The notes below the pieces were generated by a model, which was given only the letters and a program-made list of their open reading frames with translations, was not told the DNA's origin and searched no databases. Both the position numbers and the translations under genes were made by a program. A DNA stretch of 41,304 bases from Candidatus Omnitrophota bacterium (GTDB lineage Bacteria > Omnitrophota > Gorgyraeia > 2-02-FULL-51-18): the NCBI GenBank assembly GCA_023247915.1, contig JAHFFN010000011.1, forward strand, positions 1 through 41,304, given 5' to 3'. Shown piece by piece: positions 23,015-39,913 of the stretch. Position 1 is the first letter of the stretch; the number at the start of each line of letters is the position of its first letter.

Positions 23015-24118
23015 TCAAATTTCGAGAACGGAGTCAAGACCGCCGTAAGGATTGGGTTCCAGATGATCGTTGTTGGGGTCTGTTTTCCAGTGGCCATCCA
23101 CTAAAAATTTATAGCGGTAACGCCCCGGCTCCAAGGACAGGCGTTTTTCCCAGACTCCCTCTTCTTTTTGCCACAAAAGAGACTCGGGAGTGACAGCCCA
23201 ATTATTAAAATCACCCACCAAATACACTTCCCGCGCCGAACCGGCCTTGATCACAAAATCTTTAAGTCGGTTGGAGGGCGCTGGATTGAAGCGAGTGTCG
23301 TCGGTCAGGGATAAACGCGGCTCAGTTTCTAAGTTTGAGGTCGTTTTTCCGATCATCTCCTGCGCCAATAGCAGATAATCCACTGCCCCTTTTGATTTGG
23401 GATCCATGTGAATCAGTGGAAGCCCTTTGGCCTGAGACTCTTTGACGGATACGGACTGCCGAATCACGGCGCTTAACACATGATCACCAAAGGAAGAGCG
23501 AATCTCCTGCGCCATGCGCTTGGAAAAGCGCGTCCGATTATCCACCATGGTTTCAAGAGCGTGCACCTTGGGTGTGTGTGAAAGTTTGACCCGGATCAAC
23601 TCAATCATGCTCAAAAGTTTATCGACGCCCATCAAAGCGAAGGAACCGAGATCAATGGGGACGATGACGGTGCCGGCGGCGCGCAGCGCGTTAAAAGTCA
23701 AAAAGCCAAGACTTGGCGGGCAGTCAATAATTACGTAGTCATAAGGAAAGGACAAAGAGTTTAAAATTTCATGCAAACGCGAGACGGACTCATCTTTATT
23801 GGTAAATTCCTGCTCGATGGTACTCAGCAAAATATGCGACGGCGCCAGATCCAGATTTTCACTCAAAGGAACTAAGATATCCTCAAGATAATTTTTTTTC
23901 TTTTCAGATTGTTCCGTCAGAACGTTGTAGATCGAGGTGGTGACGCGATCGCCGCGCAGGCCGACTCCAAACGTCGCGTGCGCTTGAGGATCCAGATCAA
24001 TCAAAAGTGTTTTTTTGCCGAGAGACGCCAGCGAAGCCGCGAGATTGATCGCGGTTGTGGTTTTACCGCAGCCGCCTTTTTGATTCGAGATCGCGATGAT
24101 TTGCATGGAAGACTTCAT
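23015..24118 (-). CDS. ParA/Soj-type ATPase fused to a CBM48/AMPK glycogen-binding domain
   Basis: The protein has 367 residues. Residues about 5-255 are a ParA/MinD-superfamily ATPase with the deviant Walker A KGGCGKTT (Lys14 and Lys19), LIDLDPQAHAT and VIIDCPPSLGFLTFNALRAA. A short Ser/Thr-rich linker follows. Residues about 285-365 are an Ig-like CBM48/AMPK-beta type domain: REVYLVGDFNNWAVT, the conserved Trp, EPGRYRYKFLVDG and WKTDPNND. The first part positions cargo by ATP-dependent dimerisation; the second binds alpha-glucan chains. The combination is unusual. There is no ParB or parS nearby, so chromosome segregation is less likely than polar positioning or an envelope role. The start overlaps the upstream gene by 4 bp (ATGA). 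Confidence 0.9.
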   Translation of the reverse strand: MKSSMQIIAISNQKGGCGKTTTAINLAASLASLGKKTLLIDLDPQAHATFGVGLRGDRVTTSIYNVLTEQSEKKKNYLEDILVPLSENLDLAPSHILLSTIEQEFTNKDESVSRLHEILNSLSFPYDYVIIDCPPSLGFLTFNALRAAGTVIVPIDLGSFALMGVDKLLSMIELIRVKLSHTPKVHALETMVDNRTRFSKRMAQEIRSSFGDHVLSAVIRQSVSVKESQAKGLPLIHMDPKSKGAVDYLLLAQEMIGKTTSNLETEPRLSLTDDTRFNPAPSNRLKDFVIKAGSAREVYLVGDFNNWAVTPESLLWQKEEGVWEKRLSLEPGRYRYKFLVDGHWKTDPNNDHLEPNPYGGLDSVLEI

Positions 24119-24972
24119 GAGCCGTTTCCGTTATTTTTTTGACGGACAATTTGAAGCTCTTTCACAAAAATGGTGTCGCCGGATTTATTTTCAGTGTCTT
24201 TAGATCCAAAATCCAAGCGCAAGCTCTTAACTTTGTGTTTATCAAAATTGGGCGCCGCGTCATTAAAAGAAATCTCGGCGCGTTGCCACTGAACCGTGAG
24301 CGGATCCTTGATCGGGAAAATTTTTCCTTTGCGGAACGCGAGAATATTTTCCTCATCTTTGACCGCCACCGCCAAGCGCTCCCCACCCACAGCGCCTTTG
24401 ACATAAAAAACGATTTTAGCGTTCGTTAGATCTGCCGGAACGTCAAAATAAAAACTCGCACGTGCAAAAGGCGCGACCGAAGAATTGACCAGCGTCAGCG
24501 TCTGCTTGTCTTTGGAACTCTTGAGCTTGGCCGCCCCCTCAAAAATAAAACTTTCGTGAGAAATTTTTTCCATCACGGTTTCATCGCCGGACAATTCCCG
24601 CTCCACTGCCCGCGGAGCCGGTAAATTTTGCGTGAATCGGGCTTCTTCAAATGTGGCGAGATATGGATTTTTCTCATCGATCATTTTGACGTCGATAAAA
24701 ACACGTTTGGTGGAAAAAAGGCTAAGGGCAGTGATCAAAAACGCAACAGACGCGATCACCCACGGAATCAGAGAGGAAAGTTTTTGTTTTTCAACCACCC
24801 GGATGATGATGGGCGCTGGAAGTTCGGGCTTCGCGCCTTTTTCTTTATTGGCGGAGGGAAAATAAATGCTCGCCAGTTGCTCTTGAGTCATTTCGTAGGT
24901 CGATTTTTCCGACGAAATGTCTTTTTCGCTGGCTCTTAGTGTCTCTAAAATTTTACTCACGGACAGACCCAT
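24115..24972 (-). CDS. Single-pass membrane protein, partner of the ParA-CBM48 protein
   Basis: The protein has 285 residues. It has a cytoplasmic N-terminus of about 68 residues (KILETLRASEKDISSEKSTY), then a transmembrane helix (about 70-90, SLIPWVIASVAFLITALSLF), then about 190 residues outside. The outer part, from about 135, has a beta-sandwich pattern (FIFEGAAKLKSS, ARASFYFDVPADLTNAKIVF, WQRAEISFND, VKSLRLDFGSK) like carbohydrate-binding or discoidin-type jelly rolls. I cannot name a family. The 4-bp overlap with the ParA-CBM48 gene argues for a joint function, possibly with the short cytoplasmic tail contacting the ATPase. It is the first gene of the long string that ends with pilC. 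Confidence 0.7.
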   Translation of the reverse strand: MGLSVSKILETLRASEKDISSEKSTYEMTQEQLASIYFPSANKEKGAKPELPAPIIIRVVEKQKLSSLIPWVIASVAFLITALSLFSTKRVFIDVKMIDEKNPYLATFEEARFTQNLPAPRAVERELSGDETVMEKISHESFIFEGAAKLKSSKDKQTLTLVNSSVAPFARASFYFDVPADLTNAKIVFYVKGAVGGERLAVAVKDEENILAFRKGKIFPIKDPLTVQWQRAEISFNDAAPNFDKHKVKSLRLDFGSKDTENKSGDTIFVKELQIVRQKNNGNGS

Positions 24973-28615: not shown

Positions 28616-31600
28616 TTATGCGGCTCGGCTGAGCATTTGTCGAGCCATACGAGCAGCCTGAATCTTGGCCGAGATAGGCACTTTTAAAATCCTAGGAAGA
28701 AAAATATATTTTTGTAACGCCTGAGGGTTGCCCCGAAGCAGATCCAGCAGGATCGCAGCAGTGGCTTTTTCCGACGGCTCTTTGAGGCGCGCATTGAAAT
28801 AGTCCACTATTTTCAGGGGAATATCGGTTTGCTCGATCACGTCCCATTGAATTTTATACTCGGATGAAATCCGTTTTGTTTTTGTGCTGATCGCTGCCGC
28901 TGCATTAGTGCCAAACATAAAAATTTGTCCCCAGCTGAGCTGGGTACCATTTTCCGGCTGTTGGGTTGAAATATAGATTCGATTGGCTTGATAGTTGCTT
29001 GGCATGGCTGGATCTGTGATCGTGACCACGATTCCTTTTTGGCTAAAAGCATCCGCGGAGCCCAAAGTTAAATTTTTAATGCCAAATTTTTCAAGAAGTC
29101 TGCGCGTAATTTGCATTTTCCATTCTTTGTCTTCACCAAGCCTATGTTCACCGCTTAAATAAAATTCCACAACTCTTCCCTGTTTTTGATACTGATCTTG
29201 CGCTGTCTTAACGCCAAGGAGAGCTAGGGTGAGTGCTTGCTTGTACTCCTCTTTATTGTGGATCTTTTTTAAAAGGCGCAGTGACAAGTCGATTGCTATG
29301 GGTACTGCGGATGCGGTTGGGGGCGTCAACGAAAGCTCGGCGCTGATACTATCCGCTTTGAGAAGCGCCAAAAGCTCTTGACCGTTCATTGGCTCCAGGG
29401 CGCTGTCTTTACCCGCTTTCAAGGCATCACGCTCTGCCGCAAAGCCTTCGATTGTGATCAAGGCTTCGTCAGTGCTTTGAAGTTTGAGCTCAACCTTCCC
29501 CTCTGATTTCTCGATTCGGAGAGAAGAGGTTTGGCCTTCTCTGGAAGTCACCGCAAAAGCCTTGTTCAAATCATCCGCCGGAACCGACGCCACAATTTTT
29601 ATAACCGCCGCCCGCAAATCCGAAAGTTCTGTTGGAGTGAAATATTCTTTCAAATTTGCCAATCGTGCGGCAGCGCCGCCCTCCTCGCGCTTTACCTTGG
29701 CGCTGATAGCGATTAAATCTGTCAAAAGCTCTTTCAGGGTTCGCCCTTCTTGTTTTTCATCGAATTGGTTTGTATAAGAGAAGCGGTTGGTACGCGTATC
29801 CAATTGAATAATTGTTTTAAAGCCTTTTTGTGGATCCGGGTACACCCAAGTTTCTTCGCCGTGCGCATAAGGAGTCCAACCAAGTAAGTTTATTTCAGAA
29901 ATCGACAACAGGTAATTGGTAAGCGCTGTGGCCGAATCAAGGATGTGCAGCTCTCCGCCGTTATGCGCGGTGGCCACTAATTGACCGGAGATCTCGTCTA
30001 TCTCAATACTTTTTCCGTTGGGCAGTGTCAGCGTTTCCGGTGCTTTGGTGATGGAATTGCTGGGAGACGGTGAGTCCGCATCCAATTCAGTTATTTTTTT
30101 ATGTCTACCTACGAGTCTTTCGAGCGCCATAAATTTAGAAAAATAATACTCTGCGGCCATTAATTTTTTACCGTGACTTTTCTCTGAGACTTTAAAATAA
30201 GAGAGGCTTGCTTTGCCGTTAGCATCCCAATCAAGGCGCGCCAATAAAGCCCCACCACTCACTCTTTCGCCTTCCGGAAAAGGGTTTAGTCCATGCGAGG
30301 ATAGTACGGCGTCAATTTGTCCGTCGGTCGGCCGTTCAACAAATTCATAACCGGCTTCTATTAAAGGAGCGGCGAAGCGCTCTGCTTGCGAACCAAGGAA
30401 CAGATGCTCAACTTTTAAAGTAAAGTCGCCGTGCCCGGTGGGAATTGGCGATTCCTGCAATATGTATGTTGTTGGGTACCCCAATCCACGAATCCACGTG
30501 CCAGGTTTTAACTTGGCCACATTTTCCATGGTGAGCGACTTCCACTCCGGTGCCGCTAGCCGCGCACCCTCGAAATCAACCACCTCCATTTCAACCATAG
30601 TTCCGAGGACATTCAAAGTTCTGGAAACCAAAGCGTCCAGATGCGCGGGTTGATAGATTCCTCCAGAATTCTGTCGATCCAGCGCTATTAATTGTTTTTC
30701 AACGTTTTCTTTTAGCGTTTCAAAATTAATTTCATCGCCGGGCATTTCTGATAAACGATCAAGGACGGCATCAGCATAGGTTGAAATGTAATCTCTAAGC
30801 TGTTCGTCTGTTGAATAAAGCATATCCCATTGAGACGGTTCGACATTTTTGCCAAACAGGAGATTTGACACAGTCCTGCTGACATCTTCACTGGAGAAAC
30901 TATTTCGAAGATCAATGTCTTGTGGGCCCGGCTCGTGGCCTTCAAAATATTCATCCACAATCAGCGGAATAGGCTGAGCTCGTCTCAGATCAGGGATGCG
31001 GGTGATAACTTGTTGAGCCAGTATCCTGCTAATAAGAACCACCGGTTTATAAATGCCCTTAAAGCGAATAACAGTTTCGGATCCGTAAGAGTGTTCTTGG
31101 TATTCTTTAACGGCTAGTCGCGCGGCGGCGATTAATGAGATGGTGCGAGGGTTTCCCTGGTGTAGGATTTTGTTGGCATCTCTTGCGACAAAGTAATAGC
31201 CATTTTTTATAAACTCCTCCAAGGAGCCTTCTCTAACTCCTCCTAATTGTTTAGGGGAAGTTGCATGAGCAAGTCTTAGTTTTGGAGTGTTGCTAGTCAC
31301 TTCAAAATAATGAATATGCACATCACTCCCTTTTACTTCCACCGTTGCCAACAAATCGCCCGATATGGGTTCGAGTGAAGCCGTCAAGGGCGACAAGAGC
31401 TTTGTCCTTAAAAAGTCATTAAGCTCTTCTCTGGTGAGACCGGTGGGCTGTTTCGGAGTGACTGACGTTGCCTCGTCTGAAGGAAATGCTTGAAGAAGTG
31501 TTAGCAGTCTTTCGATATGCAGCCTGGCTGCTCGGTATGGTTGCGAATCTGTGGATAGGAATCTGGGGAGTTGCGGAGCGCCATTGCCCTTAAACTCCTC

Positions 31601-34600
31601 CGAATAGGCTACGCCCAATTGACGCATTTCATCGTTTATATCTGCAAGATGTTGTTGTAAATCGCCGTTCCACCGCGATGGCTCTTCTCGAAAATTCCGG
31701 AGAGTCCCAAAAGTAATGCCATTTAATCTGTCTCGGATATCCTGGATCCATTTGGGAAATTTGGTGCCCTGGATTCGAGCCGAAACGGATGGGGCGATGC
31801 CTTTCATAGCGCTTCGAAGCGCTTCGTATTCTGCGACAATCTCTCGAATTTCCGTAGTCAATCGCGCCCCTTGGGTGATAACTGTTAAACCTGGCGAGGC
31901 TCTGTCTGTCACAAATTCGCCAACTTGCTTGCCTGTTACTAAGGTCTTTCGGACGTCGAGCTCCCGCAGATTCGTCAATTCCTTTAGACGGGCAAGATCT
32001 TTGTCCGAAAATACGGTATTGGCGAGCTTGAGTATTTCTAGCTTCTCTAGCTTTGAAAGCACGGCAAAATCTTTGATTCGGGTATGGGAGAGATAAAGCT
32101 TTGTCAAATTACCAAGCTTGGCCAGCGGCCTGATATTGACAACACGCGTGCGAGAAAGATCAAGCGAGTGCAAGCTTGTTAATCTCGCAAGTGGGGCAAT
32201 GCTAGAAACAGTCGTATCTGAGAGATTAAGCCACAGTCTCTTCTCCGCTCGCTCAACAGTCAACCATCTTGCTTCGACCCTATTCTTCTTTAAAAATTTT
32301 TCCGCAACCTTCACTTGGCGATCAAATTCATCAGCCGACAATCGCGCTCCAGGACCAAAGCTTTTTAGTTGGGGATCTCTCTCTTTAGCCAGCCGGATAA
32401 TTTGATGGATAACGCCACGGACACTCTTTTTCCTGTAGGCGACAGACTCGAGAAGATTTTGAAGGTCTCGTTTAAAGAGTTTGAGCTTAGGGTTGTTCTT
32501 CAACGCCTTAAGTATTGTTTCGGCGATGAACGAATGAAGCATGTCGGAATGATTCGAGTGATTTAAGCGCATGATTAGGCGGTCGATGTCGTCTTTTGTG
32601 GGATTATTATTACCAATGGCACTAAGCGCTCTAAATTTAACACTGTCGTTTTCGCCGCCGTCCAGCACCGGAAAGTGTTCATTGTTATCGTTGACCGTTG
32701 AACTCAACGCCGCCGCCAGTCGCGCGGCGAGAAGCTCGTCAGGTATTACAGGTTCGTCGTCTCTTATGGTTAAGCGATAATTGTGGTCGGCGCTTAACAC
32801 TTCTAAACGAGGCCTTCTAAAGCGAATGATTTTTGAGGAATCGTGGTTTTCTTCTATCGCGGTATAGTAGCCCTGAAAAGCAAGAGCCGCTGTCGAAGGC
32901 TCAAAAAAACTCACATTGATAGCGTCTAAAACATAGGTGATGCCGCTATTGAGCTGGATTGACACAAAGACATCCGTCCATTTTTCAGAGGATTCTTTGC
33001 TTCTAAACCCTACAATGCCGATCTTGGTAATAGAAGAATCATACTCTCTTATTTTGTCCCTGAGCAATCGCTTCAATTCTCTATCGAGAGCAACATTATT
33101 TTGAATAGGCAATTCAGACCATTCCAAAGCCGCTTTTTTCTGCGAGCGTAATTTATTTCTGGGTGAAGCGACGACAAAATCAAGTGTCGTTGCTAGCCGC
33201 GCGGCTACAGCGGTTGATGTGGGAGCCAAAAGTTTTCTTTTGGGCGCGCCTGAAAGCTCGAGCGTTCCAGCAGGGTTTTTCGGTTGGGGATTGTAAGGAA
33301 TGGCGTTTGGCGGAAGCTCTTCACGGAGCACGAAAATATCCCTTGGTAACTCGGCAGGGATTTGCCAAGTCTCAACTCCTCTGCGCGCCCTAATTTTTTT
33401 AATGATTTCCGCATTATGCTCTCTAACTTTTGGAGGAATCACAAAATAGAGTTGGTGGCCATCCGGTGAGGAATACATTCCTGATACGATTTGATCATAC
33501 CCGAAATATGAATAATAACCTCGCTTCTTCCCCCGTTCCTCACTCGCTGGAAACCAGTGCAAGACGCGGCCTTCATCGGATAGTCTCAACATCCCATCCT
33601 TTATTGTTATGTTAATTCTTTTTTCCCCGTCATTGGCGATCAATGCCTCTACTTTTTGAACAGGCGCAGAGGCGGTATTTGCTAAACCGACAAAAGTTTG
33701 TACCGGCCCGATTGAAGGGGTTATTCTTTGAACGTTAAAATGCTCATTAAGAGCACTACTGAAATCGCCGTGAAATAAATTAAAAACAGTGTCTAGTTTT
33801 GGTTTGAGTCCATGCGGATCTTCAATGGGGAGTTGATCCCATCGCCCATCTTTTATTTGGCGTGAATCATCTTCGGTTCCAAATCGGTAGCTCCCTAAAA
33901 AAACATCTCCATCGTAAACATCGAGAAACACCACGCCACGAGCGCTTGAGGGAACCCTAAGATTAATAGTTCTTCCATCAATTTGTTTGCTCCATAGGAG
34001 CCCAATCGCATCGGCGGCGCTCCAACTACCCAGCACTGTCAATCGCGCAGCCTGCGGTTGAAATTCAAGTTTCTGCCTAAAAAAATCTTGAGCGGATGCG
34101 ATAAACTGATCGTAGATTTGTTTTGCGTTTAACTCTCTCGGAACGAGTGTGACTGTGTCTAGAACCGGGAAATCCATGTCCCCGGCGTAAATTGTGATCT
34201 GAGCGAGACCCTCCTCAAGGATTGTGACAAATAACCTTCCCGTGTGGTCGGTGATGCCCTCGCCCAAGCTACTCCAATCCATAGGGAAATTAGTCAATGC
34301 CTCTACAAATTTGTTTCCAATGTCATGGCCTGCCAACTCTGTAAATTTTTCGGCGCGATCAATGAGAGAGGTCACAACATTCACTTCAAAAGGATTAAGC
34401 TCAATTTTTAAAATAGTTCCCGCCCAACCAATTTTTACCGACGATTTGTTAGGGTCTTCATAAAAGTCTTCATAATTCAGAACCCATTCATACTGATATT
34501 GAGCGGGCATTATTTTTCTTAAAAGCTGAATAGAGCCAAATTCTTTTTGGCATAGCATCAGCTGGTAGCTGGTAAGTTGCTTAATTTCTTGGGAGAGCTG

Positions 34601-37600
34601 AGTTGAACCTTCCGACCGCTCTACCCTGTTTTTTATATCAAAAAACCCCAGTCTTTTCCCAATCCTATGAGCAACTCCTCTTAATTTGGAATCGGCTTCT
34701 TTTTGAGTGGAAGCGGATACAAGCGAGGTAGCGACAACAAAGCTGTGCTTAAAATCTGGAAATACCTTTGCCTTGGATGACGCCTGATTTGATTTCTGAA
34801 TTGTCACCGAAAGCAGGGTGGTTTGTCCGTCGCTTTGCCCCACTTCAAGTATCAGCGGTTGATGCGTGAAGAGTTCGGTGGTAGCCGGATTTGCAAGCAC
34901 ACCTTTGGTCGCTACAGGTTGCATCACAGCTTTTGATAGCCGCGCGCCGTGCGAAGCATCGAACAACTCCGTAGCCAATTGGTTGACGATTTCACGAGCT
35001 TCCTTCCGAGCCATTGCATCTTGATAATAGGGATACGGGAAAATGATCACTCCGGATTTTCCGGGAGCGTTCACGGTTCCGACGAAATAAGATTTGGATA
35101 GGTCTCGCTCGGGCTTCTTAATCATTTGGCCCATTTTTTTTATAGAACCGGCCCCAAGAACTACTATTTGTCCGGCATCTACCATTTGACGGGCAACATT
35201 CCCTCTATGTGCTGGAAATAAAAAATCCATTAATTGATTTAATCCTAAACCTAATACGTCGGACTCTGAGCCTCGAACCAGGCCTTTTTCTCCATCATAA
35301 CGATAAATAAATTTCTTATTGGGGGCTGTTTGAGCGGCAAAACCGACAAACCGAATATTATTTATTTCTGAGCGCATCGCTACGACTTCTGCCCAGTCGT
35401 TAATAAATCTGACAAGCGCAGGATAGTCGGGATCAAGATGAAAAGAAGCAATTTCATAGGTCAGTCGCGCGGCGGCGATGCCTTCCAAATCTTTCTCTCT
35501 TAGTCTTTGTGCAGTAGTCCAGACAGCCCGAGTGACTACTCCGGACATTTCTCCTGAAAGACGTTTTAATAGGCCATTAAATCTTTCTCGCTCCCCCGCT
35601 TGAAGGTTGGCGGCATCTGCCTTGAGAAAAGCGCGCGAGATCGCCATGATCAGGGACACGCGGGTGCCGGGCAAAGAATCGTCATTGCTCATGTGCGCTT
35701 CTAAAACATTCATCAGCGCTTCACGCGCGAATGGATTCCCAACGCCCTCATCCTGGAGCGCTTGAATAGCGACGCCAGTATCACGATCCTCGGTTTGGAT
35801 GGTCACTCTTTCGGTTAATATTTGAACCGCCTCCGGAATAAAAACAAGGCGATTGATCGCGCTCGCAATATCAGCGGTATTTGTGGAAACATTCTCTACC
35901 TTTCGGCCTTGGCTGGAGAAAGTCATAAAAGCGATGCCGGGTGGCACTGTCCCAGTCTCTACTTCTTCTGTGACAGTGAAGTCGTCCGGAAGGACTCCGG
36001 CATCTTTCCACAACTCAAGCTCTTGAGTTAAAAGAGCTCGATTGATTCTAAAGCCAGCGCTTTTGCCTGGTTTCACTGGAGACAAAGTCTGAATTTTTTT
36101 TGATTTCCAATCTGCAGGAACAAGATATTCTCCCTCAGAATTAATGATTGTTATGATCCTGCTGGACAGCCGCGCGGCGGCGAGCATTGTTCCGTCCTCC
36201 CCGTGCGAGGGACGGGCTTGAGCATTTTGGATAAGCTCATCTAATAATTTCATGACATCGCCACCATAGATGTCATCCGCGACCGGCTGATACTGAGCCA
36301 AGCGCTTTAAATCGGCGGCGGTTAAATAAGCTAATTGTCTTGCCTTGGCAAGAAGACCTTTTGCCTCCCCGCTTTTGTACAATTTCCCAATTTCTATTTC
36401 AAAGGGGGCAAAAAGCCCGGGAACAGCTGTAAGCTCATTCCCTTGGGTATCTCGATCTGAAAAACGGTTTGCTACGTATCTCGATTCAAGATCTCTCCAG
36501 ACTGGAAGACTGGCTTCGTGCGCTGGCTTGAAAATATCCAATGGGACGTAGTGTTCTAACACCATAAAAATCTTCCTAAGAGATTCAGAGATTCCGATTT
36601 GAGCCGCTTCCTCATTTGTTCTCTCCCAAGCCTCTCTTAAAACCAGAAATTTGTAATAAAACTGTTTTATAGACTCATAGTTAGAGCCCAGAGGCTCTTC
36701 CTTGGTGAGAGCTTCCAAATAGAATCGCACGGATTCAAGGAATCGACGCTCAAGAACATCTCTCATTTGTTCAAACGGAAAATCAACCTTCATTTGCTCA
36801 ATGTCTTCTCGCGTAAAAAGGTTTCTTTCGTGAGGCGGGATATCTTTCATATCTCCCTCAAGTCCAACAGTAATGCCAACAACGCCAAGCGACCCATAAT
36901 AATCTACAAAGTTAGGGCGTATTCTGAGATTGCCAAGACTAATTACAGGGCATTTTTTACCCGAACGTGCCCATGCTTTATCCGTTAGATAAAAAATGAC
37001 TGCAAAATTTTTAAGGAAATAAAGAAGATCTGCCTCATTTTCCGCCGTAAGAGTTGTGGGCTTCATATCGATTTGAAAGTTTTCTCCGGGTATTTCTCCC
37101 CAAAAATCCCACAACTCTCGCGGCGCTAAAATTTGGACTCGCGGAGCGAACAAATTGGCAAATGAATTCGCTCCGCCTACATGTTCAGTCCTATAGGCAT
37201 AGTTAAACTCCTCACCGGAGGGAAATATTGACACTTCAGTGACATGCATCATTGGATCGGCCATGTTAACGGGAGCAGCATTCAAAGCCTCAGCTTCTTG
37301 CGCAGAAATATCCCAATTCAAATCCATTGCGGCGGGTATCGAAGATTTCCCTGCGATAGATCGTAAATCCTCAAGCAATTTCTGAGCAAGCTGATCAGGA
37401 AGTTCTCGAATGGGGTACGTTAACCGAGCGGCGGCTTTTACAAAATCAGTTGTCAGTCGGCCGAGGGCGTCTACTTTAAAGATCGCTGCATATTCTCCAT
37501 TTGAAAATGGTACAAAGCCGTTAAGGGTGGGAGTGAATTGTTCTTTTATTTCACGAGAGGCTTCGGCTACTAATTCATTTACGGTTCTTTCGCCGCGCAG

Positions 37601-39913
37601 ATATTCTTCGTAATAACCAGGCACCTCGTCTTCCATCTGAGCTCTGTGTGCCGCGCCATCACCATAAGCATTGAAAATTCCGGCTAAGTAAGCATTCTTT
37701 TTAATGTCTTTATTTTTAGGCCTCGCCAAGCCTTCGGCTTGCAATCTCTCGCTCAATTTTTTATCTAGAAGGCTATTGAAAGAGGCTGTTACCTGTGCGT
37801 CAAGTCGTACCAGAAGCTCTCTTCGAAAAGAGATTCCTTGAGAGTAGGCCGTTAAAAAACTTGGGGTGAGTAGAGTGTCGGCACTCATACCAGGGAATTC
37901 TTTGGGATTTTCGCCAAATCGTAAATTGTACCCTGTGATAAATCCATAGCTTTCATCTGCGCCGGCTGTTTTGAAGCCCGATTTGGCCACGCCCGCGCTG
38001 ATGGCCGGGAAAAGCTCCGGCAATATTTTTTTAGTAAGCATCGCGGCTCTAGATTCATGAAGCATCCATCGGCCGGCCAGCGTCGCCGGTTGCTCAGGTT
38101 CCCAAGCTGTTGTCGATAGCCGCGCGGCGGCTGAGGGCTTTTGACGCATTGTTCTAATGGGTATTATCGGGAGATGTGAAATTTGATTGAGCGCGGGGGT
38201 TGACATGCTCCCGATTCTTAAAGTATGTCCGCTTAGGGGCACGGATGTTTGAGCTGAAAAATTAGAGAATTTTTGATTTAAGAGAAGTTTCTCATAGCGA
38301 GGAATATTGGTCTCCTGAAGAACTTGGGGTGTGATGGAGACGAAGGAAATATTTTTGTTTTTGAGGAGACTCTTTAGATTAGGCGTGTGAAAACCACCGG
38401 TAATGAGAACGGCCGATTGAAAGTTCTTCTCAAGCATCGCAGCGATAAAATGCTGATCACGCTGATACGTGAGTTCGTAAAAATCTTCGGCGCGGCGGAT
38501 CATGTCTTCATAGCCGGGCTCCAGGAAAGTGACGCGCTCGTAATAAGTTTGCAGATCGATGATTTTTTTATTGAGGAAGCCGGTGAGATTGGTGATGGAA
38601 AATTCACGACTTGCTTTGTAAGCGCTATATTCTTCCGGGGTCATGGTCAGCTTGAATAGCTTCTCAAGTAAATAGATAGTTTCTTGAGATTTGATCAGAG
38701 TTTTTTCATCTGGGGTGGTTGAAAGAGCCTGATAAAGAGCCCCTTCCAAAGCTTTGAGTTCGATTAGAATTTCTTTGGGATTGATTTGTTTGGAGTATTT
38801 GAGATAGTCAAAATATTTTGAAAGTTCGGGATATTTTAGCGTAGAGCGGATAGCGTTTAGCGAATAAGCAATGTTGTTTTTGTCTTTTGTAGCCGCTATA
38901 CGCTCTACGCTAGACGCTAAAAGCTTTTCCTCAAGCAGCGCATAGAAAGCTTTATTTTCTTGTTCCTCTCCTTTCAGTCTTAAAGGAGAATTATCTTTCG
39001 AGGCTTCCAGGAGCTCCGTCTGATCTTTAGCGTTCAAAGATTGAATAGCTTCTAGCTGCTCTTCATTGGCTTTTTTGAAATCAATCGCATTTTCTTTTTC
39101 TTTTAGCTTTTTTAAAGTGGCTAGATGCGGATAAAGCTCTAAAGAAATCCCTGACGTTGCAGCTTCGGCCTTTAAAATTTCAAAATAATCTGTTAACGGT
39201 AACCGCTCTTTCCTATATAAAGCCTGTTTTTGGTCAAACTCTAAAAGGCTGGAATTGTAAATTCTTGGCTTAAGGGTATCGACGGTGATTTGAATGCGTT
39301 GACGATAGCTTTCAAATTTCTCTCGTTCTTTGGCAACGTATTGATAATCGGCCAACGCTTTTTTATAAAGCTCTAAATTTTCAACGCCGTAAATCGTAAA
39401 ATTTTTGTTCGAAGTGAGATCCAGATATTCTTCACCATGAAGCATGCCGTCCCGCAAGAAAGGTTCGGCGATTTTACGTCTTTGCTCGGCGGTACCGTAT
39501 TTTCTGTAGGAGCTCAGCGAATTGTCACCAACTCCCGCTTCGACAAAGACGTATTTTAATTGCTTGTCTTTGTCTAGGAGAGCGTCGATGGTCTTAGAAA
39601 GGTTGAATTGCCCGGAGGGGTTGGTGTGGGCATCTTGAATAAGATAGATCAGCGTAGAGCGTTTAGCGGATAGCGGATAAGAGTTGTTGTTTTTGTCTTT
39701 TGCATCTGCTACACGCTCTACGCTATCCGCTAAAAATGCGTCTTCTATCGCGGCGACAGACGGCGGTAATTTCAGGTCAATCTTGGGTTTTTCAAACGGA
39801 TCGATCTTCTTGGGGGTCAGGAGCTCAGGATTGGCAAACGCCAATTGCTCAAAAAGGAAAGTGTAGACCAAAAAAGAAGAGATGACGCGCAAAACGCTAT
39901 ACTTTGATCTCAA
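28616..39913 (-). CDS. Giant secreted modular protein (3765 aa) with TIKI/TraB-like N-terminal domain
   Basis: The start is a TTG at 39913 with a GAGGAAGAGG purine run upstream. Residues 1-28 are a signal peptide ending AFA. Residues about 88-560 resemble the TIKI/TraB/EreA/ChaN superfamily: IQDAH (His96), VFVEAG (Glu125) and GGFHT (His509). Two copies of a palindromic repeat are translated within it (residues about 60-88 and 331-359). The remainder is a chain of modules of about 110-420 residues separated by the peptide [AG]ARL[STA] at Arg598, 830, 1248, 1483, 1658, 1957, 2239, 2398, 2524, 2684, 2932, 3118 and 3417. One module (2525-2683) holds leucine-rich repeats; the others I do not recognise. 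The C-terminus has no anchor. Reading is uninterrupted over 11.3 kb, so the frame is certainly under selection. Function unknown. Confidence 0.9.
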   Translation of the reverse strand: MRSKYSVLRVISSFLVYTFLFEQLAFANPELLTPKKIDPFEKPKIDLKLPPSVAAIEDAFLADSVERVADAKDKNNNSYPLSAKRSTLIYLIQDAHTNPSGQFNLSKTIDALLDKDKQLKYVFVEAGVGDNSLSSYRKYGTAEQRRKIAEPFLRDGMLHGEEYLDLTSNKNFTIYGVENLELYKKALADYQYVAKEREKFESYRQRIQITVDTLKPRIYNSSLLEFDQKQALYRKERLPLTDYFEILKAEAATSGISLELYPHLATLKKLKEKENAIDFKKANEEQLEAIQSLNAKDQTELLEASKDNSPLRLKGEEQENKAFYALLEEKLLASSVERIAATKDKNNIAYSLNAIRSTLKYPELSKYFDYLKYSKQINPKEILIELKALEGALYQALSTTPDEKTLIKSQETIYLLEKLFKLTMTPEEYSAYKASREFSITNLTGFLNKKIIDLQTYYERVTFLEPGYEDMIRRAEDFYELTYQRDQHFIAAMLEKNFQSAVLITGGFHTPNLKSLLKNKNISFVSITPQVLQETNIPRYEKLLLNQKFSNFSAQTSVPLSGHTLRIGSMSTPALNQISHLPIIPIRTMRQKPSAAARLSTTAWEPEQPATLAGRWMLHESRAAMLTKKILPELFPAISAGVAKSGFKTAGADESYGFITGYNLRFGENPKEFPGMSADTLLTPSFLTAYSQGISFRRELLVRLDAQVTASFNSLLDKKLSERLQAEGLARPKNKDIKKNAYLAGIFNAYGDGAAHRAQMEDEVPGYYEEYLRGERTVNELVAEASREIKEQFTPTLNGFVPFSNGEYAAIFKVDALGRLTTDFVKAAARLTYPIRELPDQLAQKLLEDLRSIAGKSSIPAAMDLNWDISAQEAEALNAAPVNMADPMMHVTEVSIFPSGEEFNYAYRTEHVGGANSFANLFAPRVQILAPRELWDFWGEIPGENFQIDMKPTTLTAENEADLLYFLKNFAVIFYLTDKAWARSGKKCPVISLGNLRIRPNFVDYYGSLGVVGITVGLEGDMKDIPPHERNLFTREDIEQMKVDFPFEQMRDVLERRFLESVRFYLEALTKEEPLGSNYESIKQFYYKFLVLREAWERTNEEAAQIGISESLRKIFMVLEHYVPLDIFKPAHEASLPVWRDLESRYVANRFSDRDTQGNELTAVPGLFAPFEIEIGKLYKSGEAKGLLAKARQLAYLTAADLKRLAQYQPVADDIYGGDVMKLLDELIQNAQARPSHGEDGTMLAAARLSSRIITIINSEGEYLVPADWKSKKIQTLSPVKPGKSAGFRINRALLTQELELWKDAGVLPDDFTVTEEVETGTVPPGIAFMTFSSQGRKVENVSTNTADIASAINRLVFIPEAVQILTERVTIQTEDRDTGVAIQALQDEGVGNPFAREALMNVLEAHMSNDDSLPGTRVSLIMAISRAFLKADAANLQAGERERFNGLLKRLSGEMSGVVTRAVWTTAQRLREKDLEGIAAARLTYEIASFHLDPDYPALVRFINDWAEVVAMRSEINNIRFVGFAAQTAPNKKFIYRYDGEKGLVRGSESDVLGLGLNQLMDFLFPAHRGNVARQMVDAGQIVVLGAGSIKKMGQMIKKPERDLSKSYFVGTVNAPGKSGVIIFPYPYYQDAMARKEAREIVNQLATELFDASHGARLSKAVMQPVATKGVLANPATTELFTHQPLILEVGQSDGQTTLLSVTIQKSNQASSKAKVFPDFKHSFVVATSLVSASTQKEADSKLRGVAHRIGKRLGFFDIKNRVERSEGSTQLSQEIKQLTSYQLMLCQKEFGSIQLLRKIMPAQYQYEWVLNYEDFYEDPNKSSVKIGWAGTILKIELNPFEVNVVTSLIDRAEKFTELAGHDIGNKFVEALTNFPMDWSSLGEGITDHTGRLFVTILEEGLAQITIYAGDMDFPVLDTVTLVPRELNAKQIYDQFIASAQDFFRQKLEFQPQAARLTVLGSWSAADAIGLLWSKQIDGRTINLRVPSSARGVVFLDVYDGDVFLGSYRFGTEDDSRQIKDGRWDQLPIEDPHGLKPKLDTVFNLFHGDFSSALNEHFNVQRITPSIGPVQTFVGLANTASAPVQKVEALIANDGEKRINITIKDGMLRLSDEGRVLHWFPASEERGKKRGYYSYFGYDQIVSGMYSSPDGHQLYFVIPPKVREHNAEIIKKIRARRGVETWQIPAELPRDIFVLREELPPNAIPYNPQPKNPAGTLELSGAPKRKLLAPTSTAVAARLATTLDFVVASPRNKLRSQKKAALEWSELPIQNNVALDRELKRLLRDKIREYDSSITKIGIVGFRSKESSEKWTDVFVSIQLNSGITYVLDAINVSFFEPSTAALAFQGYYTAIEENHDSSKIIRFRRPRLEVLSADHNYRLTIRDDEPVIPDELLAARLAAALSSTVNDNNEHFPVLDGGENDSVKFRALSAIGNNNPTKDDIDRLIMRLNHSNHSDMLHSFIAETILKALKNNPKLKLFKRDLQNLLESVAYRKKSVRGVIHQIIRLAKERDPQLKSFGPGARLSADEFDRQVKVAEKFLKKNRVEARWLTVERAEKRLWLNLSDTTVSSIAPLARLTSLHSLDLSRTRVVNIRPLAKLGNLTKLYLSHTRIKDFAVLSKLEKLEILKLANTVFSDKDLARLKELTNLRELDVRKTLVTGKQVGEFVTDRASPGLTVITQGARLTTEIREIVAEYEALRSAMKGIAPSVSARIQGTKFPKWIQDIRDRLNGITFGTLRNFREEPSRWNGDLQQHLADINDEMRQLGVAYSEEFKGNGAPQLPRFLSTDSQPYRAARLHIERLLTLLQAFPSDEATSVTPKQPTGLTREELNDFLRTKLLSPLTASLEPISGDLLATVEVKGSDVHIHYFEVTSNTPKLRLAHATSPKQLGGVREGSLEEFIKNGYYFVARDANKILHQGNPRTISLIAAARLAVKEYQEHSYGSETVIRFKGIYKPVVLISRILAQQVITRIPDLRRAQPIPLIVDEYFEGHEPGPQDIDLRNSFSSEDVSRTVSNLLFGKNVEPSQWDMLYSTDEQLRDYISTYADAVLDRLSEMPGDEINFETLKENVEKQLIALDRQNSGGIYQPAHLDALVSRTLNVLGTMVEMEVVDFEGARLAAPEWKSLTMENVAKLKPGTWIRGLGYPTTYILQESPIPTGHGDFTLKVEHLFLGSQAERFAAPLIEAGYEFVERPTDGQIDAVLSSHGLNPFPEGERVSGGALLARLDWDANGKASLSYFKVSEKSHGKKLMAAEYYFSKFMALERLVGRHKKITELDADSPSPSNSITKAPETLTLPNGKSIEIDEISGQLVATAHNGGELHILDSATALTNYLLSISEINLLGWTPYAHGEETWVYPDPQKGFKTIIQLDTRTNRFSYTNQFDEKQEGRTLKELLTDLIAISAKVKREEGGAAARLANLKEYFTPTELSDLRAAVIKIVASVPADDLNKAFAVTSREGQTSSLRIEKSEGKVELKLQSTDEALITIEGFAAERDALKAGKDSALEPMNGQELLALLKADSISAELSLTPPTASAVPIAIDLSLRLLKKIHNKEEYKQALTLALLGVKTAQDQYQKQGRVVEFYLSGEHRLGEDKEWKMQITRRLLEKFGIKNLTLGSADAFSQKGIVVTITDPAMPSNYQANRIYISTQQPENGTQLSWGQIFMFGTNAAAAISTKTKRISSEYKIQWDVIEQTDIPLKIVDYFNARLKEPSEKATAAILLDLLRGNPQALQKYIFLPRILKVPISAKIQAARMARQMLSRAA
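29665..38122 (-). repeat. Dispersed ARL junction motif series in the giant gene
   Basis: Thirteen sites encode [AG]ARL[STA], with the Arg codon starting (minus strand) at 38122, 37426, 36172, 35467, 34942, 34045, 33199, 32722, 32344, 31864, 31120, 30562 and 29665. A weaker RAARLH is at 31525. At DNA level most read GCGCGRYTR, often with GCCGCC before it. Average spacing is about 235 codons. The sequences between sites are not similar to one another as far as I can see. Confidence 0.8.
31867..32341 (-). other. Leucine-rich repeat module of the giant protein (residues about 2525-2683)
   Basis: Between the ARL motifs at Arg2524 and Arg2684 the translation shows consecutive internalin-like LRR units: LWLNLSDTTVSSIAPLARLT, SLHSLDLSRTRVVNIRPLAK, LGNLTKLYLSHTRIKDFAVL, KLEILKLANTVFSDKDLARL and NLRELDVRKTLV. 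This is the only module after the N-terminal domain for which I recognise the fold. Its limits coincide exactly with two ARL motifs. Confidence 0.8.
38838..38923 (-). repeat. In-frame palindromic heptamer element, copy 2
   Basis: The 86-bp sequence is about 83% identical to copy 1 (39651-39736). On the plus strand the left arm is four heptamers, gcgtaga, gcggata, gcgttta, gcgaata (38839-38866), then a 23-bp core (38867-38889). The right arm is four heptamers in the opposite orientation, read on the minus strand as gcgtcta, gcgtaga, gcgtata, gcggcta (38890-38917). It is translated within the giant protein as the peptide LASSVERIAATKDKNNIAYS and what follows. Confidence 0.88.
39651..39736 (-). 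repeat. In-frame palindromic heptamer element, copy 1
   Basis: The left arm on the plus strand is gcgtaga, gcgttta, gcggata, gcggata (39652-39679), followed by a 23-bp core (39680-39702). The right arm, read on the minus strand, is gcggata, gcgtaga, gcgtgta, gcagatg (39703-39730). It is translated in the same frame as copy 2, as LADSVERVADAKDKNNNSYP followed by LSAKRSTL, immediately before the first conserved strand (IQDAH) of the TIKI/TraB-like domain. Confidence 0.88.

Follow-up and report, generated by a model that had tools for sequence, protein, structure and literature searches.

Introduction

ATPases of the ParA/MinD family act on a range of cargos that include DNA, carboxysomes, chemoreceptors, flagella and the divisome. 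Our full-text literature searches found no storage polysaccharide among the cargos of these ATPases, no polysaccharide is named as a positioned cargo in the A/D-ATPase papers covered, and we know of no explanation for how bacterial glycogen is distributed between daughter cells. Nor did we find, in that literature (outside which most subscription journals lie), a published description of a ParA domain joined to AMPK1_CBM or CBM48. Partners of A/D ATPases generally act via an N-terminal peptide (PMC10241942). The CBM of AMPK is an allosteric glycogen sensor, in which W100, K126, W133, L146 and T148 of the beta-1 subunit touch the sugar, and mutants bind glycogen markedly less (PMC2642990).

Here we analyse a gene that unites both types of domain, found in a window of 41,304 nucleotides (the whole stretch of DNA under study) from a Candidatus Omnitrophota bacterium. 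It resembles McdA/McdB and other A/D-ATPase cargo systems in that the gene beside the ATPase encodes a candidate partner whose N-terminus carries a conserved peptide, following the principle described for those systems (PMC10241942). Unlike McdA, to which its similarity is about 20%, it carries a putative cargo-binding domain on the ATPase itself, and its partner is often membrane-anchored. The conserved fusion and the dedicated partner gene that usually adjoins it suggest that stored sugar may be placed or sensed inside the cell by a mechanism not yet described.

A conserved ParA-CBM48 fusion

The gene and its parts are as follows.

23015..24118, minus strand: ParA-CBM48 fusion gene, 367 aa, ATG start at the 24118 side
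23327..24106, minus strand: ParA domain, residues 5-264 (Pfam, AlphaFold model, Foldseek)
24059..24079, minus strand: deviant Walker A KGGCGKT (K14-T20), with C17 in 55/56 fusions as against V in 55/55 canonical ParA
23978..23992, minus strand: motif 2 DPQAH (D43-H47); H47 invariant, the position of a catalytic Asn in canonical ParA
23276..23326, minus strand: disordered linker, residues 265-281 (pLDDT below 50)
23021..23266, minus strand: CBM48 / AMPK1_CBM domain, residues 285-366 (Pfam, PDB sequence match, model)
23198..23200, minus strand: W307, equivalent of AMPK beta-1 W100, invariant in 56/56
23087..23089, minus strand: W344, equivalent of AMPK beta-1 W133, invariant in 56/56

The initial annotation had proposed a ParA ATPase and a CBM48 domain in one frame, and this is confirmed. 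The plus-strand reading of 23015-24118 has many stops and the coding frame lies on the minus strand, in which all three of the motifs claimed (KGGCGKTT, VYLVGDFNNW and GRYRYKFLVDG) are found. Against Pfam, the protein matches AAA_31 (1.5e-54, residues 5-179) and CbiA (1.2e-22), followed by AMPK1_CBM (PF16561, 4e-13, 49.8 bits against a cut-off of 26.8) and CBM_48 (1.6e-5, exceeding its own cut-off). Among PDB sequences it matches the ParA structure 8ray at 2e-52, and its CBM part alone matches the AMPK beta-1 CBM at about 1e-9. An AlphaFold model built from an alignment of 56 relatives (pLDDT 91) places the two domains in separate folds, the ParA part being joined by the disordered linker to a beta-sandwich at residues 285-366. 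Within the source genome, the fusion is the only match to AMPK1_CBM.

The fusion is not restricted to this assembly, since full-length homologues occur in most Omnitrophota families as well as in Planctomycetota and Latescibacterota, which rules out an assembly artefact or a genome-specific fusion; full fusions are also present in a few MAGs labelled Pseudomonadota. In 285 sampled Omnitrophota genomes, most of the best matches listed span residue 5 or earlier to residue 364 or later in one open frame. Matches that surpass 1e-54 were seen in about 200 of these genomes; the count is approximate because it is based on this score threshold, which the source genome's own canonical ParA (7e-49) fails to reach. 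In Planctomycetota the fusion was seen in only about five of 149 genomes, and three deltaproteobacterial relatives have the ParA signature common to the fusions but lack the CBM. A 2635-aa "fusion" at locus L133 was excluded, since it proved to be an ORF that reads across a stretch of N.

Glucan-contact residues of the CBM48 domain

Neither of the two observations that would have spoken against the initial annotation, loss of the glucan-contact Trp and Lys in all homologues or a fusion confined to this assembly, was made. A phmmer alignment equates W307, K337 and W344 of the fusion with W100, K126 and W133 of AMPK beta-1, and both contact Trp positions are constant over three phyla. The lysine position is occupied by K in 31, R in 19 and Q in six of the 56 aligned fusions, 55 of which have D or N at position 362, the equivalent of AMPK N150. 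With a profile score above the cut-off and the W100, W133 and K126 equivalents in place, the domain belongs to CBM48 / AMPK1_CBM. It shares with AMPK beta the fusion of a glycogen-reading type of domain to another protein, and differs in being bacterial, in its attachment to a ParA ATPase and in the substitutions tolerated at the K126 and N150 equivalents. The best overall reading is a ParA-family module predicted to handle alpha-glucan together with a tethering or activating partner.

The ParA domain and chromosomal ParA

In fold, the ParA part is close to Soj/ParA structures (8ray, 6iub, 2bek; Foldseek TM 0.87-0.93), and it has the deviant Walker A with signature lysines K14 and K19 in 56/56 fusions, which together with the overall sequence place it in the ParA/MinD family. 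Motif 2 retains D41 and D43, whereas the Asn that completes the catalytic D, D, N set of chromosomal Soj/ParA is replaced by His in 56/56; the Asn at this site is N64 of Myxococcus ParA, where it is listed as catalytic (PMC12462528). Compared with 55 canonical ParA proteins, the basic residue R195 is retained, R221 is gone and K/R226 has been acquired. The exchange of the catalytic Asn for H47 and the loss of R221 mean that hydrolysis and DNA binding may differ from those of Soj/ParA, from which the fusion is further set apart by C17, by its CBM48 tail and by having no ParB neighbour. One fusion from Planctomycetota retains KGGVGKT but combines it with DPQAH.

In a tree of 89 ParA domains, a branch supported at 100% sets canonical ParA apart, and the fusions do not group with it. 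Judged from these sequences, the ParA domain of the fusion is a lineage separate from chromosomal ParA. Elsewhere in the source genome there is an ordinary parA-parB pair, whose ParB has VLGRGLEALIP at its N-terminus.

It is highly improbable that the fusion is a second copy of a partition ParA, chromosomal or plasmid-borne, whose tail is inert: Soj is indeed its closest fold, but the lineage is separate, the genome has its own parAB, the CBM is conserved and none of the plasmid records reaches 80% coverage of the protein, which also led us to reject a plasmid origin.

A candidate partner gene with a conserved N-terminal motif

It had also been noted that the fusion lacks a ParB partner. No ParB homologue is adjacent to it; however, a motif-bearing partner gene adjoins the fusion in most loci, and the claim that there is no partner is probably wrong. 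In the window, the candidate lies directly upstream.

24115..24972, minus strand: upstream partner gene, 285 aa, overlapping the first 4 bp of the fusion (ATGA)
24859..24885, minus strand: QEQLASIYF, the partner's conserved N-terminal motif; Y37 nearly invariant
24709..24780, minus strand: partner TM helix, residues 65-88
24133..24585, minus strand: partner periplasmic domain, residues 130-280, with a CBM30/CBM4/CBM11-like fold (Foldseek 1wzx, 1.7e-7)

This protein is predicted to have a cytosolic N-terminus, a single TM helix and a periplasmic beta-sandwich, the likeness of which to CBM30 is one of fold only (18.3 bits against Pfam CBM30, under the cut-off of 27). The same arrangement, here called type A, of an upstream gene with [ED]xLAxxY[FL] near its N-terminus was seen in 32 of the examined loci, the protein being otherwise very divergent. 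In other Omnitrophota lineages, Planctomycetota and one deltaproteobacterial relative, it is the downstream gene that begins with a ParB-like peptide (LGKGLEDISHLFLS, RGIESISHLFLS, RGLENISNLFLS). The type B partner is such a downstream protein, an FlhG-like pseudo-ATPase with the ParB-like N-terminus LGKGLEDISHLF. Omnitrophota type B partners resemble the MinD-like FlhG/FleN by profile (1.7e-11); unlike functional ATPases of that kind, they have no Walker A (no GKT occurs in their alignment), and the ParB-like N-terminal motif is among the few invariant positions. Such pseudo-ATPases were observed downstream of the fusion at L126, L127 and L148-L150. The type B peptide LGKGLEDIS is similar to LGRGLEALIP of the genome's own ParB, and is extended by SHLFLS.

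The two types share the core [IL][AS]xx[YF][FL], and they are connected by a Planctomycetota locus (L154) that has the type A motif on the downstream gene. In 37 of 62 loci, a same-strand gene next to the fusion has such a motif within its first 60 residues, compared with 2.7% of other genes; the corresponding 1e-30 is not a true probability, because the pattern was written after examples had been seen and the loci are related. It occurs on partner proteins that are unrelated to one another. An adjacent partner was not found in genomes of family f2, where PurQ lies upstream, nor in most Phycisphaerae loci.

In ParB, stimulation depends on the central basic residue to a greater degree than binding does (PMC12462528). 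The type A motif differs from the ParA-binding motif at the ParB N-terminus in having no central Arg/Lys, and by this analogy the type A partner may tether the ATPase instead of activating it.

A possible role in placing or sensing stored sugar

From architecture, conservation and context, we infer that the fusion binds glucan, docks its partner and has a role in positioning. The reading that we tentatively favour is that of an ATPase module of the ParA/MinD family devoted to alpha-glucan, which would place glycogen relative to the nucleoid or envelope with the help of a docked partner. The ParA domain would dimerize with ATP, on the nucleoid or held by the partner, and the C-terminal CBM48 would grip glycogen or glycogen-bound enzymes via the invariant W307 and W344. 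The partner would dock on the ParA dimer by a short N-terminal helix ([ED]xLAxxY[FL] in the membrane type, LGKGLEDISHLF in the soluble pseudo-ATPases) in the manner of ParB, the membrane type acting as a tether and the basic type stimulating hydrolysis. As a net effect, glycogen would be placed relative to the nucleoid or envelope and shared between daughter cells. The stronger proposal of a dedicated glycogen partition system, in which the ATPase itself would grip the storage polysaccharide and a docking tag would be common to CBM30-like, FlhG-like and DUF4912 partners, is possible, if on the doubtful side. Relatives in Planctomycetota are culturable, and a phylum-wide protein with both domains and a candidate partner makes the question of glycogen distribution directly testable, also in Planctomycetota.

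A link to glycogen is plausible from three separate neighbourhoods. In nine loci from six families, a GH57 gene is found two genes upstream of the fusion. Eight loci, almost all belonging to family f2, have GlgC at a distance of four to six genes, encoded on the opposite strand. In the lineage of family f33, the fusion is followed at three loci by same-strand genes for a DUF4912 protein and a GH57 branching enzyme. This context is only suggestive because GH57 genes are common, and all neighbour counts come from loci that are phylogenetically non-independent. The DUF4912 proteins of the f33 lineage carry an LGKGLEDIS-type tag, as in type B partners; they include L035:4209-5891 (LGKGLKDIS) and L127:12978-14420 (LGKGLEDIS), both upstream of the GH57 branching enzyme. 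A prediction that DUF4912 proteins are generally tagged failed, the tag being present in only these three loci of one lineage. In the source genome, GlgA is present and GH57 is matched three times, one of these matches lying beside a DUF4912 gene.

GlgA is found in 264 of the 285 Omnitrophota genomes, including many without the fusion. AMPK1_CBM is absent from 13 of the 21 genomes without GlgA and from 30 of the 264 with it (Fisher 3e-7, or 0.004 once the smallest genomes are dropped; these statistics ignore relatedness, and the count takes in stand-alone proteins of about 100 aa, some of them beside glgA). Stand-alone AMPK1_CBM ORFs of about 100-145 aa directly beside glgA were observed in several Omnitrophota families (G058:C75, G099:C116, G026:C26, G072:C7).

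Instead of positioning glycogen, the fusion could be a glucan sensor, in which glucan binding by the CBM would alter the ParA dimer and, through the membrane partner, an envelope carbohydrate system made up of an Alginate_exp porin, the periplasmic CBM30-like domain and a Tic20-like small membrane protein. The AMPK CBM offers a precedent as an allosteric glycogen sensor (PMC2642990), H47 is an atypical catalytic residue and the periplasmic domain of the partner is CBM30-like in fold. The gene order porin - (GH57) - partner - ParA-CBM - small membrane protein recurs in about 20 loci. The Alginate_exp outer-membrane porin, which is not a glycogen gene, is the most conserved distant neighbour (19 loci), and the small membrane protein, of about 105 aa and near the fusion in 14 loci, is Tic20-like by eye and matched no Pfam family. 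At L130-L146, the porin lies two to four genes upstream of the fusion and the 105-aa protein directly downstream. We nevertheless consider a sensor rather unlikely: in other lineages the partners are soluble and the porin is absent, and binding to a matrix followed by release is how ParA dimers usually work.

That the CBM48 domain binds protein or has a structural role, and that the ATPase positions an envelope protein cargo with no glucan involved, is quite unlikely in our view. E-set domains often make protein contacts, the contact lysine is variable (K/R/Q) and the nearest conserved neighbours of the fusion are envelope proteins; yet the Trp pair that forms the glucan platform of AMPK is invariant across three phyla, and glycogen enzymes adjoin the fusion in separate lineages.

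The initial annotation had placed the fusion at the head of a gene string leading to a pilus core. In the window this is accurate, in that pilus genes begin five genes downstream with PilM and PilQ follows at eight, on the same strand, but among 64 loci PilM/PilQ are nearby only here and at L032, and even within the window's own family two further loci lack them, so that the association is rejected and a role in positioning type IV pili is very improbable.

A giant repeat ORF in the window

At higher coordinates in the window, an ORF of 3765 aa (28616-39913, minus strand) has 14 spaced copies of [GA]ARL[STAH], encoded by a repeated GC-rich element of the GCCGCGCG type, and a leucine-rich stretch near 2560-2655. 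It looks like a chain of modules split by a fixed junction sequence. Also within this ORF are two 93-nt repeat copies of the AGCGTAGAGCG type, at 38830-38922 and 39643-39735, which are 82% identical.
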